Source of the DNA: a virus
IMG/VR virus record: IMGVR_UViG_3300010885_024778
Span: 1 to 29,498 of that record
Length of the DNA stretch: 29,498 nt
Direction: 5' to 3' (one strand)
A program made the translations under genes and the position numbers. Below, one piece after another: positions 19,086 to 29,498 of this stretch (position 1 is its first letter; each line of letters starts with the position of its first letter). The notes beneath the pieces were generated by a model. That model was not told the origin of the DNA and ran no database searches. It saw nothing but the letters and a program-made list of their open reading frames with translations.

Positions 19086-19113
19086 GATTATGCAATAAAT
19101 TGCCGTATCTTTG
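19083..19113 (+). promoter_or_regulatory. Early promoter (Bacteroidota type)
   Basis: TTTG (19083-19086), a 19-bp spacer and TATCTTTG (19106-19113) match the -33/-7 consensus of Bacteroidota primary sigma. It drives the ERF/SSB operon starting at 19154. Flanking sequence on both sides resembles that of the promoter at 24853-24884. Confidence 0.88.
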
Positions 19114-21681: not shown

Positions 21682-21712
21682 TTTGCACTTGCAAATTAAT
21701 TTACTATCTTTG
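21682..21712 (+). promoter_or_regulatory. Promoter of the structured leader
   Basis: TTTG (21682-21685), a 19-bp spacer and TATCTTTG (21705-21712) are a full match to the Bacteroidota consensus. The -33 box is part of the inverted repeat TTTGC-ACTT-GCAAA (21682-21695), like the palindrome at the ribbon-helix-helix gene. The transcript should start near 21717-21721. Confidence 0.85.
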
Positions 21713-21720
21713 TATTGTTA

Positions 21721-21810
21721 ATCGTCGCCAGCGGCTAACAACTAAAGACATTGGGAAACCTTAATCCCATAGCCCTGCATAATCTGGCGATATGTGGGGC
21801 TTTTTCTTTT
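21721..21810 (+). ncRNA. Structured leader RNA: candidate attenuator/riboswitch or small RNA
   Basis: No good coding frame is seen. Three nested stems can form: P1 GTCGCCAG (21724-21731) with CTGGCGAT (21784-21791, one G-U); P2 GGCTA (21733-21737) with TAGCC (21770-21774); and P3 TGGGA (21752-21756) with TCCCA (21765-21769). The 3' strand of P2 is also the 5' strand of a terminator stem, and the 3' strand of P1 lies in that terminator's loop, so the nested fold and the terminator exclude each other, apart from a possible P1-loop pseudoknot. I could not match it to a known riboswitch, ribozyme or leader class. It may instead be a free small RNA ending at about 21806. Confidence 0.6.
21771..21810 (+). 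terminator. 11-bp terminator hairpin competing with the leader fold
   Basis: AGCCCTGCATA (21771-21781) pairs fully with TATGTGGGGCT (21791-21801), with nine Watson-Crick and two G-U pairs, around the loop ATCTGGCGA. It is followed by TTTTTCTTTT. It precedes the initiator gene, and its 3' arm contains the ATG at 21792. Confidence 0.82.
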
Positions 21811-21839
21811 ATGGCATAATGCACATAATTACACTAACT

Positions 21840-22592
21840 ATGAACGGCATTGATAAAGCTATTGAGCTGTCTAATGAGGGCAAGCTAACTATTACCCAAG
21901 CACACATTTATACTATTCTGCTTAGGCGATTAGATGAGGTTAAAGGTGGTGTTATACTTGCCTCTGTTAGGTGGTTTGAACGTCAATATAGGATTACTCC
22001 TAAAACGTATCTTAATGCTTTAGAAGCTTTGCAATTTGAGGGGCTTTTGACTTATGTAGTGGATGCCAAAAACGGAATAAGGATAACGATTAAAGATAGT
22101 GAGTGCGTGGTATTGGGTGTGGGAAAATCAACTACACTAACTCCCACACTTGATACCACACTAAGTACTACACTAACTCCCACACTTGATACCACAACAG
22201 AAATACCTAATACCTTAATACCTATAATACCTAATACCTATATTAAGGAGGCTGATAAATCAGCAGAAAAAGAGCAACCAAAATCTATAGATGATAATAG
22301 CAAAAAACAAAAAGCAAAACCGATTGCATTTGTTCCACCAACTATTGAAGAATGCAGGCAGTATTTTATTCAGCACGCTTCAGATTATCACATGACTATT
22401 ATCATTGCCAAAAGTCAAGCTGAAATTTTCTTTAATTATTACGAGTCCGACAATTGGAAACGAGGTAAGGACAAAAAGCAGATTGACAAATGGCGAGGAT
22501 GTGCAGCTGTTTGGGGATTAAAATACAAAGCTCAAAACTCACCACCAAGTAACAATTCTTCACCACAATCAAGACCCATACAACCAAACTAA
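21840..22592 (+). CDS. Winged-helix replication initiator-like protein
   Basis: About 250 residues from the ATG at 21840. An in-frame ATG at 21792 lies inside the terminator stem and would add a hydrophobic 16-residue leader, so it is less likely. The N-terminal domain is a winged helix (KLTITQAHIYTILLRRLDEV, then YRITPKTYLNALEALQFEGL). The middle is a Thr/Pro-rich repeated linker (TTLTPTLDTTLS twice). The C-terminal domain has VPPTIEECRQYF, then AEIFFNYYESDNWKRGKDKK and KWRGCAAVWG, a module found at the end of phage replisome-organiser proteins. It lies directly before the helicase, so it probably opens the origin and loads the helicase. Confidence 0.75.
   Translation: MNGIDKAIELSNEGKLTITQAHIYTILLRRLDEVKGGVILASVRWFERQYRITPKTYLNALEALQFEGLLTYVVDAKNGIRITIKDSECVVLGVGKSTTLTPTLDTTLSTTLTPTLDTTTEIPNTLIPIIPNTYIKEADKSAEKEQPKSIDDNSKKQKAKPIAFVPPTIEECRQYFIQHASDYHMTIIIAKSQAEIFFNYYESDNWKRGKDKKQIDKWRGCAAVWGLKYKAQNSPPSNNSSPQSRPIQPN
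22131..22196 (+). repeat. 36-bp tandem duplication inside the initiator gene
   Basis: Two tandem copies with period 36 bp start at 22131 and 22167; the first 30 bases of each are identical (ACTACACTAACTCCCACACT followed by ten more). They encode a 12-residue repeat in the linker of the initiator protein. Confidence 0.9.
22202..22239 (+). repeat. Five AATACCT heptamers, candidate origin iterons
   Basis: AATACCT occurs five times, at 22202, 22209, 22217, 22226 and 22233, with spacing of 7, 8, 9 and 7 bp, followed by the AT-rich TATATTAA. Repeats within an initiator gene recall lambda ori inside gene O. They also encode the low-complexity peptide IPNTLIPIIPNTYI, so a protein-level cause is possible. 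Confidence 0.6.
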
Positions 22593-22600
22593 TTAACCCT

Positions 22601-24031
22601 ATGGCAGAACTAATAGAATTTATCCAACCGCCTAATAATCCTGAATTGGAACAAGCTGTTTTAGCCGCAATACTTTTGGAAGGAGATTGCCTAAAGCAAG
22701 TAGTTTCAATCATTGGAACGGATGTAGAAGCATTTTACAACTACAAGCATCAGTTAATTTATAAAGCAATCCTGAATTGCCACATTGAAGGTATTGCAGT
22801 GGATATGCTTACCGTTTCGGTGATGCTTAGGAAAATGAAGGAACTGCAAACAATCGGAGGCAATAAATACCTCGCTGATTTAACACTTAAAGTTAATTCT
22901 AGCGGTAATGTAGCATCGCACTGCTTGTACTTACTAGAAGAATACATGAGAAGGTTTACAATTACTTTTAGCAATGAAATTCATGGACTTGCAAGTAATT
23001 ATTCAGCCGATGTTTTTGAAACTACCGAAAGAATTAAAGCCTTGCAAGATAAGTTTGAAGATTTAACTAATCGCATGAAGCGCACCAAGACGCTTAGCGA
23101 GGTGCTGCAAAGTGTGCTAGTTCAATCTGACAAAGCTAGAGAGGCCAAAGGCATGATAGGAGTGGACACAGGATTAACGGCATTAAATAGCTATACAAGC
23201 GGCTGGCAACCTGCTACGTTAGTAATTATTGGCGCACGCCCTGCAATGGGAAAAACTGCATTAGTTTTGCGCTTTATTCAAGCCGCATTGAACATTGGTA
23301 AAAAAGTACTCATGTTTAGCGTAGAAATGAGCAACGAAGCTATTGCTATGAGATTGTTAAGCAGTGAGTTGAAAGTCCCTACAAAGCCAATTAAAAGCGG
23401 AAAAATGGAACGTTATGAGATAGAGGCAGGTGTATCTAAGCTAGAAAGCAAAAACTCTCCGAATTTATACCTTGATGATACGGCAAACGTTTCTATTGCT
23501 CAGGTTCAAAACTTGACTAACAAGATTAAACCCGATCTGATTATCATTGACTATTTACAGCTTATGAAGGTGAGTAAGCAAAACAGGCAAGAAGGGATTG
23601 AAGATAATAGCAGAGCATTAAAAGCGATTGCCAAAGAACATAATATCCCAGTAATTGCGCTTAGTCAAGTCAATAGGGAAGTTGAAAAGCGAACCGATAA
23701 GATGCCAAAACTTGCAGACCTTAGAGAGGCTGGAGGTATCGAGCAAGATGCCGATATGGTTTTATTCCTGAATCGTCCAGAGTATTGGACTAGCACAATG
23801 GATGGCGAGCAATACAGGTACCTGAATCAGTTTGAAATTAGCATTGCCAAAAATAGAGAGGGAGGAGTAGGCACTATTTACTTAGAAGCTGATATGGCAA
23901 TTAACGAGGTTAAGGACTTATCCCTTGAACATTACTCACTAGTGGGCTATGAATTGCCGCAAATGCAGTCCAATTCCATGCAGATGCCAAACATTGACCA
24001 CTTCACTAATTTGCAAACATTACCTTTTTAA
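22601..24031 (+). CDS. dnaB: Replicative DNA helicase, DnaB type
   Basis: 476 residues. The N-terminal DnaB domain (PPNNPELEQAVLAAILLEGD, about 10-29) is followed by the RecA-like ATPase: Walker A GARPAMGKT at 211-219, FSVEMSNEAIAMR (motif H1a region), Walker B LIIIDYLQLM at 313-322, then ALSQVNREVEKR and the arginine-finger region around DLREAGGIEQDADMVLFLNR. It forms the hexamer that unwinds phage DNA at the fork. Length is usual for the family. It lies 8 bp after the initiator gene. Confidence 0.96.
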   Translation: MAELIEFIQPPNNPELEQAVLAAILLEGDCLKQVVSIIGTDVEAFYNYKHQLIYKAILNCHIEGIAVDMLTVSVMLRKMKELQTIGGNKYLADLTLKVNSSGNVASHCLYLLEEYMRRFTITFSNEIHGLASNYSADVFETTERIKALQDKFEDLTNRMKRTKTLSEVLQSVLVQSDKAREAKGMIGVDTGLTALNSYTSGWQPATLVIIGARPAMGKTALVLRFIQAALNIGKKVLMFSVEMSNEAIAMRLLSSELKVPTKPIKSGKMERYEIEAGVSKLESKNSPNLYLDDTANVSIAQVQNLTNKIKPDLIIIDYLQLMKVSKQNRQEGIEDNSRALKAIAKEHNIPVIALSQVNREVEKRTDKMPKLADLREAGGIEQDADMVLFLNRPEYWTSTMDGEQYRYLNQFEISIAKNREGGVGTIYLEADMAINEVKDLSLEHYSLVGYELPQMQSNSMQMPNIDHFTNLQTLPF

Positions 24032-28361: not shown

Positions 28362-29498
28362 ATGAAGATAACTGAAATAAAAAGCAACCCAAACAATCCT
28401 CGTGTAATCAAGGATGACAAGTTTAAAAAGCTTTGCAAGTCTATTCAAGACTTCCCAAAAATGATGGAGCTTCGGCCTATCATTGTAGATGCTGACAACA
28501 TAGTGCTAGGTGGCAATATGAGGCTTAAGGCTTTGCTGGAGTTAGGCTATAAAGAGATTCCCGATGCTTGGGTTAAACAAGCGGACAAACTCACTGAGGA
28601 GGAAAAGAAACAGTTTATTGTAAAAGATAACGTAGGCTTTGGTGAATGGAATTATGAAGACCTTGCAAATAATTGGAACGCTGATGATTTAGTAGACTGG
28701 GGATTGGACTTGCCAATAGTGGAAGAGACACCAGAGGCAACTGAAGATAATTTTACCGTAGATGCAGAGCGCACTAAAACGGATATTATAATTGGCGATT
28801 TGTTTACTATTGGTGAGCATCGTTTGTTGTGTGGTGATAGTACGGATTCTGATGCGGTTGCAAAATTGATGGATGGGAAATTAGGTGATTTAGCACACAA
28901 CGACCCTCCTTATGGAATGAAAAAAGAAAGCGAAGGAGTGATAAATGATAACTTAAATTATACAGATTTACTAGAGTTTAACCGTCAATGGATTGCTTTA
29001 CAGTTTTCGTATCTTAAAGAGAATGGCAGCTTTTATTGTTGGGGTATTGATGAGCCGTTAATGGATATTTATAGCGAAATAATAAAGCCATACATTAATT
29101 TGCAAAAAGCCACATTTAGAAATTTAATAACATGGGATAAGGGAAACGGGCAAGGTCAAAATTCGGATAATACTAGAAGTTACGCCATAGCTGATGAAAA
29201 ATGCTTATTTGTTATGTGTGGAGTTCAAGGCTTTAATAATAATGCAGACAATTACTTTGAAGGATGGGAATCAATAAGAAGTTATTTAATTCAAGAAAAA
29301 GAAAAAAGCGGATTAACGAATGAAGAAATAAAAAAAATAACATCAACTTCTCATACCCACTATTGGAGTAAAAGTCAATGGGCTTTTCCAACATTAAAAG
29401 ATTACGATGCAATAAAAAAAGCTTCAATTAATAAAGCCTTTAAGCGAGAGTACGAAGATATTAAGCGAGAGTACGAAGATATTAAGCGAGAGTACGAA
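28362..29498 (+). CDS. ParB-like/DNA methyltransferase fusion, N-terminal part (continues at 1-483)
   Basis: 379 codons up to the end of the window; the full gene continues in frame through the join to 483. Residues 1-100 are ParB/Srx-like (NPNNPRVIKDDKFKKLCKSI; VLGGNMRLKALLELGYKEIP), with the G-G-N-x-R-x-x-A nucleotide-binding box. The methyltransferase domain begins about residue 140 (IIIGDLFTIGEHRLLCGDST) and carries the catalytic DPPY at 181-184. Fusions of ParB-like and methyltransferase domains are common in phages. The gene is last in the operon driven from 27187 and directly precedes the packaging genes. Confidence 0.92.
   Translation, partial: MKITEIKSNPNNPRVIKDDKFKKLCKSIQDFPKMMELRPIIVDADNIVLGGNMRLKALLELGYKEIPDAWVKQADKLTEEEKKQFIVKDNVGFGEWNYEDLANNWNADDLVDWGLDLPIVEETPEATEDNFTVDAERTKTDIIIGDLFTIGEHRLLCGDSTDSDAVAKLMDGKLGDLAHNDPPYGMKKESEGVINDNLNYTDLLEFNRQWIALQFSYLKENGSFYCWGIDEPLMDIYSEIIKPYINLQKATFRNLITWDKGNGQGQNSDNTRSYAIADEKCLFVMCGVQGFNNNADNYFEGWESIRSYLIQEKEKSGLTNEEIKKITSTSHTHYWSKSQWAFPTLKDYDAIKKASINKAFKREYEDIKREYEDIKREYE
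29382..29498. repeat. Terminal overlap copy 2 (circular join)
   Basis: Identical to bases 1-117. It ends part-way through the third copy of the 21-bp repeat. Removing one copy gives a circle of 29,381 bp. Confidence 0.9.

Follow-up and report, generated by a model that had tools for sequence, protein, structure and literature searches.

Matched hairpin loops in leaders before replication genes point to an undescribed switch or brake in Bacteroidota phages

The leader and its surroundings

The window, that is, the whole stretch of 29,498 nucleotides that was analysed (IMG/VR record IMGVR_UViG_3300010885_024778), is a 29.5-kb fragment of a tailed phage; structural genes occupy its left side, and genes for recombination and replication its right. 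The right-hand gene families are ERF, SSB, NinB/Orf, initiator, DnaB, VRR-NUC and exonuclease. A reading frame at 28362-29498 is cut by the contig end; its product presumably resembles a ParB-nuclease/DNA-methyltransferase protein, and it ends in tandem 21-bp repeats (attaagcgagagtacgaagat), which are perhaps the reason why the assembly stopped. The features around the leader are given below, where G001 (IMGVR_UViG_3300027741_000235) and G002 (IMGVR_UViG_3300032303_001163) are close relatives found by a terminase search in IMG/VR.

21682-21712, plus strand: early promoter of Bacteroidota consensus, with -33 box TTTG (21682-21685), 19 nt, and -7 box TATCTTTG (21705-21712); near-identical in G001 and G002
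21717-21739, plus strand: P0, 5'-terminal hairpin, GTTAATCG (21717-21724) with CGGCTAAC (21732-21739), one mismatch
21725-21731, plus strand: P1 5' strand, TCGCCAG, pairing with 21784-21790
21736-21757, plus strand: 22-nt invariant core TAACAACTAAAGACATTGGGAA, comprising part of the P0 3' strand, a single-stranded linker and the P3 5' strand
21752-21769, plus strand: P3 hairpin, TGGGA/TCCCA (TGGG/CCCA in the relatives)
21771-21810, plus strand: intrinsic terminator, AGCCCTGCATA/TATGTGGGGCT followed by TTTTTCTTTT; stem kept by compensatory changes in G001 and G002
21784-21790, plus strand: P1 3' strand, CTGGCGA, in the terminator loop, 0 nt from the terminator 3' strand and 2 nt from the 5' strand
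21811-21819, plus strand: two-codon reading frame ATG GCA TAA; same ATG position in G001 and G002
21819-22592, plus strand: replication initiator, O/DnaD-like winged helix (phrog_270, 6e-4; phrog_186 and phrog_270 for the G001 and G002 homologues)
22131-22196, plus strand: about five tandem 12-bp repeats of the ACTACACTAACT/CCCACACTTGAT type, inside the initiator gene
22601-24031, plus strand: DnaB-like replicative helicase (PF03796, 1.7e-77)

An earlier note on this DNA, made from the letters alone, had claimed a consensus promoter here, and the match to both Bacteroidota boxes at 21682-21712 is complete. For the primary sigma factor of Bacteroidota (sigma-A), the -33/-7 consensus is TTTG/TAnnTTTG, and the -7 box lies at -12 to -5 (PMC6847099, PMC9723704); RNA is therefore predicted to start at 21717. 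The TATCTTTG box (TATCTTTGTAA-type) also occurs 5' of other early genes of the window, at 19106, 24877 and 27210. A leader scan (described below) detected no structured kissing-loop leader at these three early promoters, and the promoter at 21705 gave the only true leader match within the window.

P0, which the earlier note overlooked, carries the 5' strand of P1 as its loop (21725-21731). The stems that the note had named P1, P3 and the terminator can all be found in the sequence, and the P1 3' strand does coincide with the terminator loop (21784-21790). In the window, P1 consists of seven Watson-Crick pairs plus one G-U pair, and the terminator stem (21771-21781/21791-21801) of 11 pairs that include U-G and G-U. 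The energy of the leader fold is only moderately unusual (z -2.1, with 6 of 200 shuffles as good); it is comparison between phages, not fold energy, that provides the decisive evidence for the predicted leader.

The ATG behind the terminator had likewise escaped the earlier note. In the window, G001 and G002 alike it lies exactly 11 nt past the last terminator C, and in the two relatives it opens the next gene; in the window, the stop codon of the short frame overlaps the probable initiator start at 21819 (TAATG). That start was set by homology with G002, and 21840 is also possible. Similar 12-bp repeats are found at the same place in G001 and G002, and these tandem repeats are probably origin iterons. 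An extra 13-bp copy of the repeat lies at 21827-21839, just 3' of the terminator.

Covariation in close relatives and in a second family

The terminases of G001 and G002 are 85-86% identical to that of the window, and their leaders are 77% and 83% identical to the window leader, respectively. The three genes 5' of the window leader have no counterpart in these relatives, and their initiator and helicase are only 28-37% identical to those of the window. The terminase query succeeded where queries with the initiator or helicase found no close relatives in IMG/VR, GTDB genomes or phages. Letter patterns for P1/P2 and P2/terminator returned chance matches only from IMG/VR, patterns for the core and for the terminator returned, as leaders, G001 and G002 only, and nucleotide similarity in phage and plasmid collections yielded matches mainly to promoters. 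The core TAACAACTAAAGACATTGGGAA is identical in the three phages, and within IMG/VR it was found as part of such a leader only in them.

G001 and G002 are 91-93% identical to each other up to the terminator; past it their sequences share no similarity before the iteron-like repeats of the initiator gene. Because homology ends right behind the terminator, the leader was kept while the adjoining gene was exchanged. The exchanged segment reaches from the terminator end to the iterons (around L159:2689/L160:3081), with about 92% identity on both sides, and G002 has an extra 114-aa gene and a different initiator N-terminal part compared with G001. G002 also has an in-frame P-loop insertion in its terminase large subunit (L164:798-3014; GGAG|CFAKGTLVQT...NYLVHN|SGKS), which we take to be intein-like; a 197-aa reading frame in another frame inside the insertion (L164:1093-1686) presumably encodes a relative of HNH homing endonucleases.

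The stems behave differently in this comparison, which the earlier note had proposed as a check for compensatory changes. P1 reads TC-GCCAG/CTGGC-GA in the window, TCAGCCAG/CTGGCTGA in G002 and TCTAGCAG/CTGCTAGA in G001; all pairs are kept, and three pairs are changed on both sides. Between G001 and G002, three neighboring P1 pairs are different even though the flanks are about 92% identical. The terminator also shows compensatory changes in the relatives (GCATA/TATGT and GCCAA/TTGGT). P0 is closed by GUUA/UAAC in each of the three phages and is paired in 22 of 24 cells with zero double changes, so that it is weak on its own there; an equivalent hairpin covaries in the second family described below. 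The P3 pairs are invariant and therefore speak neither for nor against this hairpin. P2 (GGCTA/TAGCC), which the note had taken for a real helix, forms five of five pairs in the window and five of five with a G-U in G001, and drops to three of five in G002 (AATTA against TAGCC), with zero compensatory changes in the set.

The mechanism put forward in the note was a classical switch, in which a nested P1-P2-P3 antiterminator excludes the terminator and senses a ligand, a protein or the ribosome. The window's nascent RNA, once it extends as far as P1, is indeed predicted to adopt P1-P2-P3 (-19.6 kcal/mol), in which the 5' strand of the terminator is paired. In nascent folds of the relatives, however, half of this strand is unpaired in G001 and most of it in G002, P2 is broken in G002 without compensation, and the leaders of the second family have no counterpart of P3. 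Like the note, the analysis recognized no named RNA class: none of the Rfam 15 covariance models reached its gathering threshold, the best being NsiR1 (17.2 bits against a cut-off of 39). Ligand or translation sensing finds no backing in a riboswitch match in Rfam or a conserved leader peptide, and a switch of the classical kind is very improbable. Because the P1 3' strand uses only the terminator loop, P1 does not exclude the terminator stem. The covariation instead upholds what the note had listed as an alternative, a pseudoknot of P1 with the terminator loop: P1 is a predicted kissing-loop contact that is compatible with the terminator.

A second family of leaders was recognized through a weak match to a covariance model of the three leaders, when more distant terminase relatives (about 42%) were searched. 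The match (G024:6857-6979) is without clear sequence similarity to the window leader. It has a 5' hairpin TGTTTC[GGTCTCAC ATTATA]GAAACA and a terminator hairpin GCAAGG-AA[GTGAGACC]CCTTGC inside GGCCCTTA/TAAGGGCT; the two loops are perfectly complementary, and the fold is unusual (z -3.5, 0 of 200 shuffles as good). Copies in six further contigs allow a near gap-free alignment of seven leaders (A7), in which all 217 cells of 31 pairs are standard and 15 of the 31 pairs are changed on both sides, including four of the eight pairs of P1 alone. Not one of 500 shuffles equalled the alignment in pairing, double-change counts or covariation score. Since four of the seven leaders are near-copies, the alignment effectively contains about four independent sequences. 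RNAalifold predicts both hairpins unprompted. The geometry of the terminator loop, 2-3 nt, then 7-8 paired nt, then 0 nt, is the same in all seven members of this family, the window, G001 and G002.

Occurrence of the design and the genes behind it

The architecture was sought with a rule that calls for TAnnTTTG followed by a terminator whose loop can form 7 or more contiguous Watson-Crick pairs with the first 45 nt. Among the promoter regions of the relatives' contigs, 25 of 1341 match; shuffling only the first 45 nt gives 1.8 matches on average and never more than 4, and random anchors in the same contigs give 4-7. The contigs were picked by terminase relatedness and the rules were set after the first examples, so these counts describe this phage group, not all phages. 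Two of the 25 matches were judged false, namely window 28178 (long loop, no P0) and L361:1795. The remaining 23 leaders have about 16 different P1 sequences. A looser geometry scan that made no demand for a terminator was less specific (23 matches against 3-10 in shuffled sequences). In unrelated viral loci, scanning gave 4 matches against 3.1 expected.

Examples show how freely the letters vary. L401 has TAGTTG[TGTGGAAGA]CAACTA with ACCTCGATAGACT[TCTTCCACA]AGTTTATTGAGGT, the two loops being exactly 9 and 9 nt, and L374 has the 5' hairpin AAGAAT[GATGCAG]ATTCTT. G013 has GCTTAGTCCGA/TCGGACTAAGC with 11 pairs; P0 is not clear there, nor in G041 and a few others. The architecture as defined here is a 5' hairpin loop or 5' strand with at least 7 pairs to the loop of a promoter-proximal terminator. 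G022 and G040 each have a pair of leaders whose loops differ. Among cultured phages, Flavobacterium phages mumin6-4 and snusmum9-1 have a leader (GTGGAACG/CGTTCCAC) before an operon of gp036, helicase and VapE primase, which lies near 12.2 kb of MN812223; Flavobacterium sp. LMO6 and LMO9 serve as hosts for these phages. Tenacibaculum phage Gundel_1 has GTTAC[GCTCTCAC AATAAA]GTAAC and AGTAG-TG[GTGAGAGC]CTACT with a weak T tract. The scan found no leader in Winoviridae (pippi8-1, FPSV-S1), Leeuwenhoekiella Arctus_1, Bacteroides BT2 or Cellulophaga phi38:2, and none was seen in the stretch examined of some related phages with the same primase type (Nonlabens P12024S/L and others); the element is therefore not universal.

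The P1 strand starts 9-12 nt past TAnnTTTG in 16 of the 23 leaders, i.e. near the RNA 5' end, and a start codon lies 9-19 nt past the terminator stem in nearly all scan matches. This fixed promoter spacing, the U tract and the start codon are features of transcription, and they argue against reading the element at the DNA level, as an origin or protein-binding site whose inverted repeats are merely hairpin-like. The iteron-like repeats close by in the initiator gene would fit such a site, but complementarity between loops has no obvious use in duplex DNA, and this explanation is hardly tenable.

Most leaders precede replication genes, and these belong to unrelated families (O/DnaD-like, Lin1244, BT4734/VapE and DUF5906). 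An O/DnaD-like initiator and DnaB follow the leader in the window and G001, and the initiator is the second gene in G002; G013 has a Lin1244_N initiator (1.2e-10). BT4734-like_N primases, most of them also with VapE or PriCT domains, were found in the examined genomes G005, G021, G026, G041 and G046, with close copies of this primase type in G020 and G023. A DUF5906 primase follows the second leader of G040 and, as a close copy, that of G022. G039 has a DnaD-like loader in third place, and in G042 the second of the listed genes encodes a DnaB helicase. In the second family a small gene or reading frame or a nuclease comes first, followed by primase-like and DUF5906 genes. The exceptions are L363, with an unknown gene, and Gundel_1, with an antirepressor gene. 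The earlier note had proposed a structured leader regulating the initiator; the terminator-ended leader in this position has proved general, and what falls away is the nested-stem mechanism.

How the leader might act

Judged by sequence match, the locus has the layout of an attenuator: a promoter, a structured leader, an intrinsic terminator and a gene to be regulated, with no promoter between them. A conserved, mutually exclusive antiterminator is missing from this layout, since P2 lacks conservation and P1 can coexist with the terminator. We lean towards reading the element as a transcription attenuator that acts in cis on the phage replication operon and is built on an intramolecular kissing loop. 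The start codon behind the U tract, the lack of a promoter between, and the repeated association with replication genes all argue for control in cis.

According to this attenuator model, RNA polymerase would start at about 21717, and the first 23 nt would fold into P0 and expose its 7-nt loop. Once the terminator hairpin has formed, its loop could pair with the P0 loop to give P1, which can stack on the terminator stem, with 0 nt separating the two helices on the 3' strand and about 2 nt on the 5' strand. For the majority of transcripts, synthesis would be expected to stop at the U tract and give a compact RNA about 92 nt long, and the fraction that reads through would carry the initiator and helicase, whose start codon comes right after the U tract. 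Kissing might occur before the terminator 3' strand emerges, slowing stem closure and favoring read-through, or it might clamp the finished terminator and strengthen release; the timing and direction of loop pairing would then set the amount of replication proteins. We infer from the letters that the leader terminates in vivo and that kissing tunes termination, in one direction or the other. Translation in flavobacteria initiates without Shine-Dalgarno pairing, and RNA structure close to the start codon tunes it (PMC6847099); the terminator hairpin may therefore affect translation, too.

Alternatively, the leader could be a free small RNA, about 92 nt long, with targets in trans. Kissing would stabilise the RNA and hide its 5' end, the single-stranded invariant core would be the part that binds a target or protein, and the position before replication genes would reflect shared early expression only. 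Its own promoter and strong terminator, the 22 invariant nt in three phages and the retention of the leader while downstream genes are swapped would all suit such an RNA. The ATG directly past the U tract in nearly all cases and the recurrent replication genes fit cis control better, however; moreover, the invariant core is not common to the second family, and its antisense matches in phage genomes are no better than those of shuffled cores. A free small RNA is on the unlikely side.

Several known systems resemble the proposed attenuator in part. In ColE1, RNAI and RNAII form a kissing complex through fully complementary loops of about 7 nt, an intermolecular antisense contact on the replication primer; the phage leader has complementary loops of similar size, but its contact would be intramolecular and sense. 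Purine and preQ1 riboswitches that terminate transcription are 5' leaders with tertiary loop contacts (pseudoknots or kissing loops) and the terminator as output, features that the phage leaders share. Unlike those riboswitches, the leaders have no conserved aptamer core across families, only complementarity, and no match in Rfam. In plasmids pIP501 (repR) and pT181 (repC), a leader with an intrinsic terminator stands before the replication initiator, as in the phage, and loop contacts decide termination. Their partner is a separate antisense RNA, whereas the partner loop of the phage leader is in the same RNA. Attenuation in pIP501 is cited in PMC7430163. A scan for an antisense promoter of the Bacteroidota type found no minus-strand TAnnTTTG between 20368 and 23138.

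HK022 put consists of two stem-loops at or near the start of a phage early transcript, acts on termination and binds RNA polymerase, as far as it is described in PMC9378689. By analogy, the folded 5' part of the phage leader might be a nascent-RNA antiterminator that binds RNA polymerase and helps it to pass this and later terminators. The two 5' stem-loops on a phage early RNA, with hairpins at its very 5' end and a terminator directly after, are in keeping with this, and lambdoid early genes are likewise preceded by terminators, with the put stem-loops behind the early promoter (PMC9378689). In that account, however, put has no terminator of its own and no pairing between put and a terminator loop is mentioned, and the phage leader has both. 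In addition, the leader loops drift with only their complementarity kept, which a polymerase-binding surface would not need. A put-like role is improbable.

Since only complementarity is conserved and loops differ even within one genome, there is room for intermolecular contacts. The terminated leader RNA might serve as a sense-RNA sensor of replication copy number: as phage genomes multiply, released leaders would use both loops to pair with the leaders being transcribed from other copies and so alter how these terminate. In that case the letters of the loops would be a specificity code akin to incompatibility, which would explain the fast but matched change of P1 between G001 and G002 and the different loops within G022 and G040. 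This reading is speculative and, in our estimate, rather unlikely.

To our knowledge, RNA-based control of early phage genes is almost unexplored in the Bacteroidota, a phylum without Shine-Dalgarno control. The recurring two-hairpin design with free but matched loop letters points to a switch or brake on virus replication that has so far not been described, and would constitute an undescribed class of structured RNA in Bacteroidota phages. Being defined by geometry, not sequence, such a class is invisible to sequence searches and to single-family covariance searches. It occurs in front of at least four unrelated types of replication gene and may therefore be a common solution for limiting or timing phage replication. 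The cultured carriers mumin and snusmum (Flavobacterium) and Gundel_1 (Tenacibaculum) make the leader directly testable.

Short promoter-terminator units of about 60 nt (GCCCTTGCAGAAATGTGAGGGCTTT) were also seen in G021, G024, G023 and G017 (L306-L309), at junctions with convergent genes. They were rejected as leaders, having only promoter and terminator letters in common and lacking the loop pairing, and are possibly free small RNAs.
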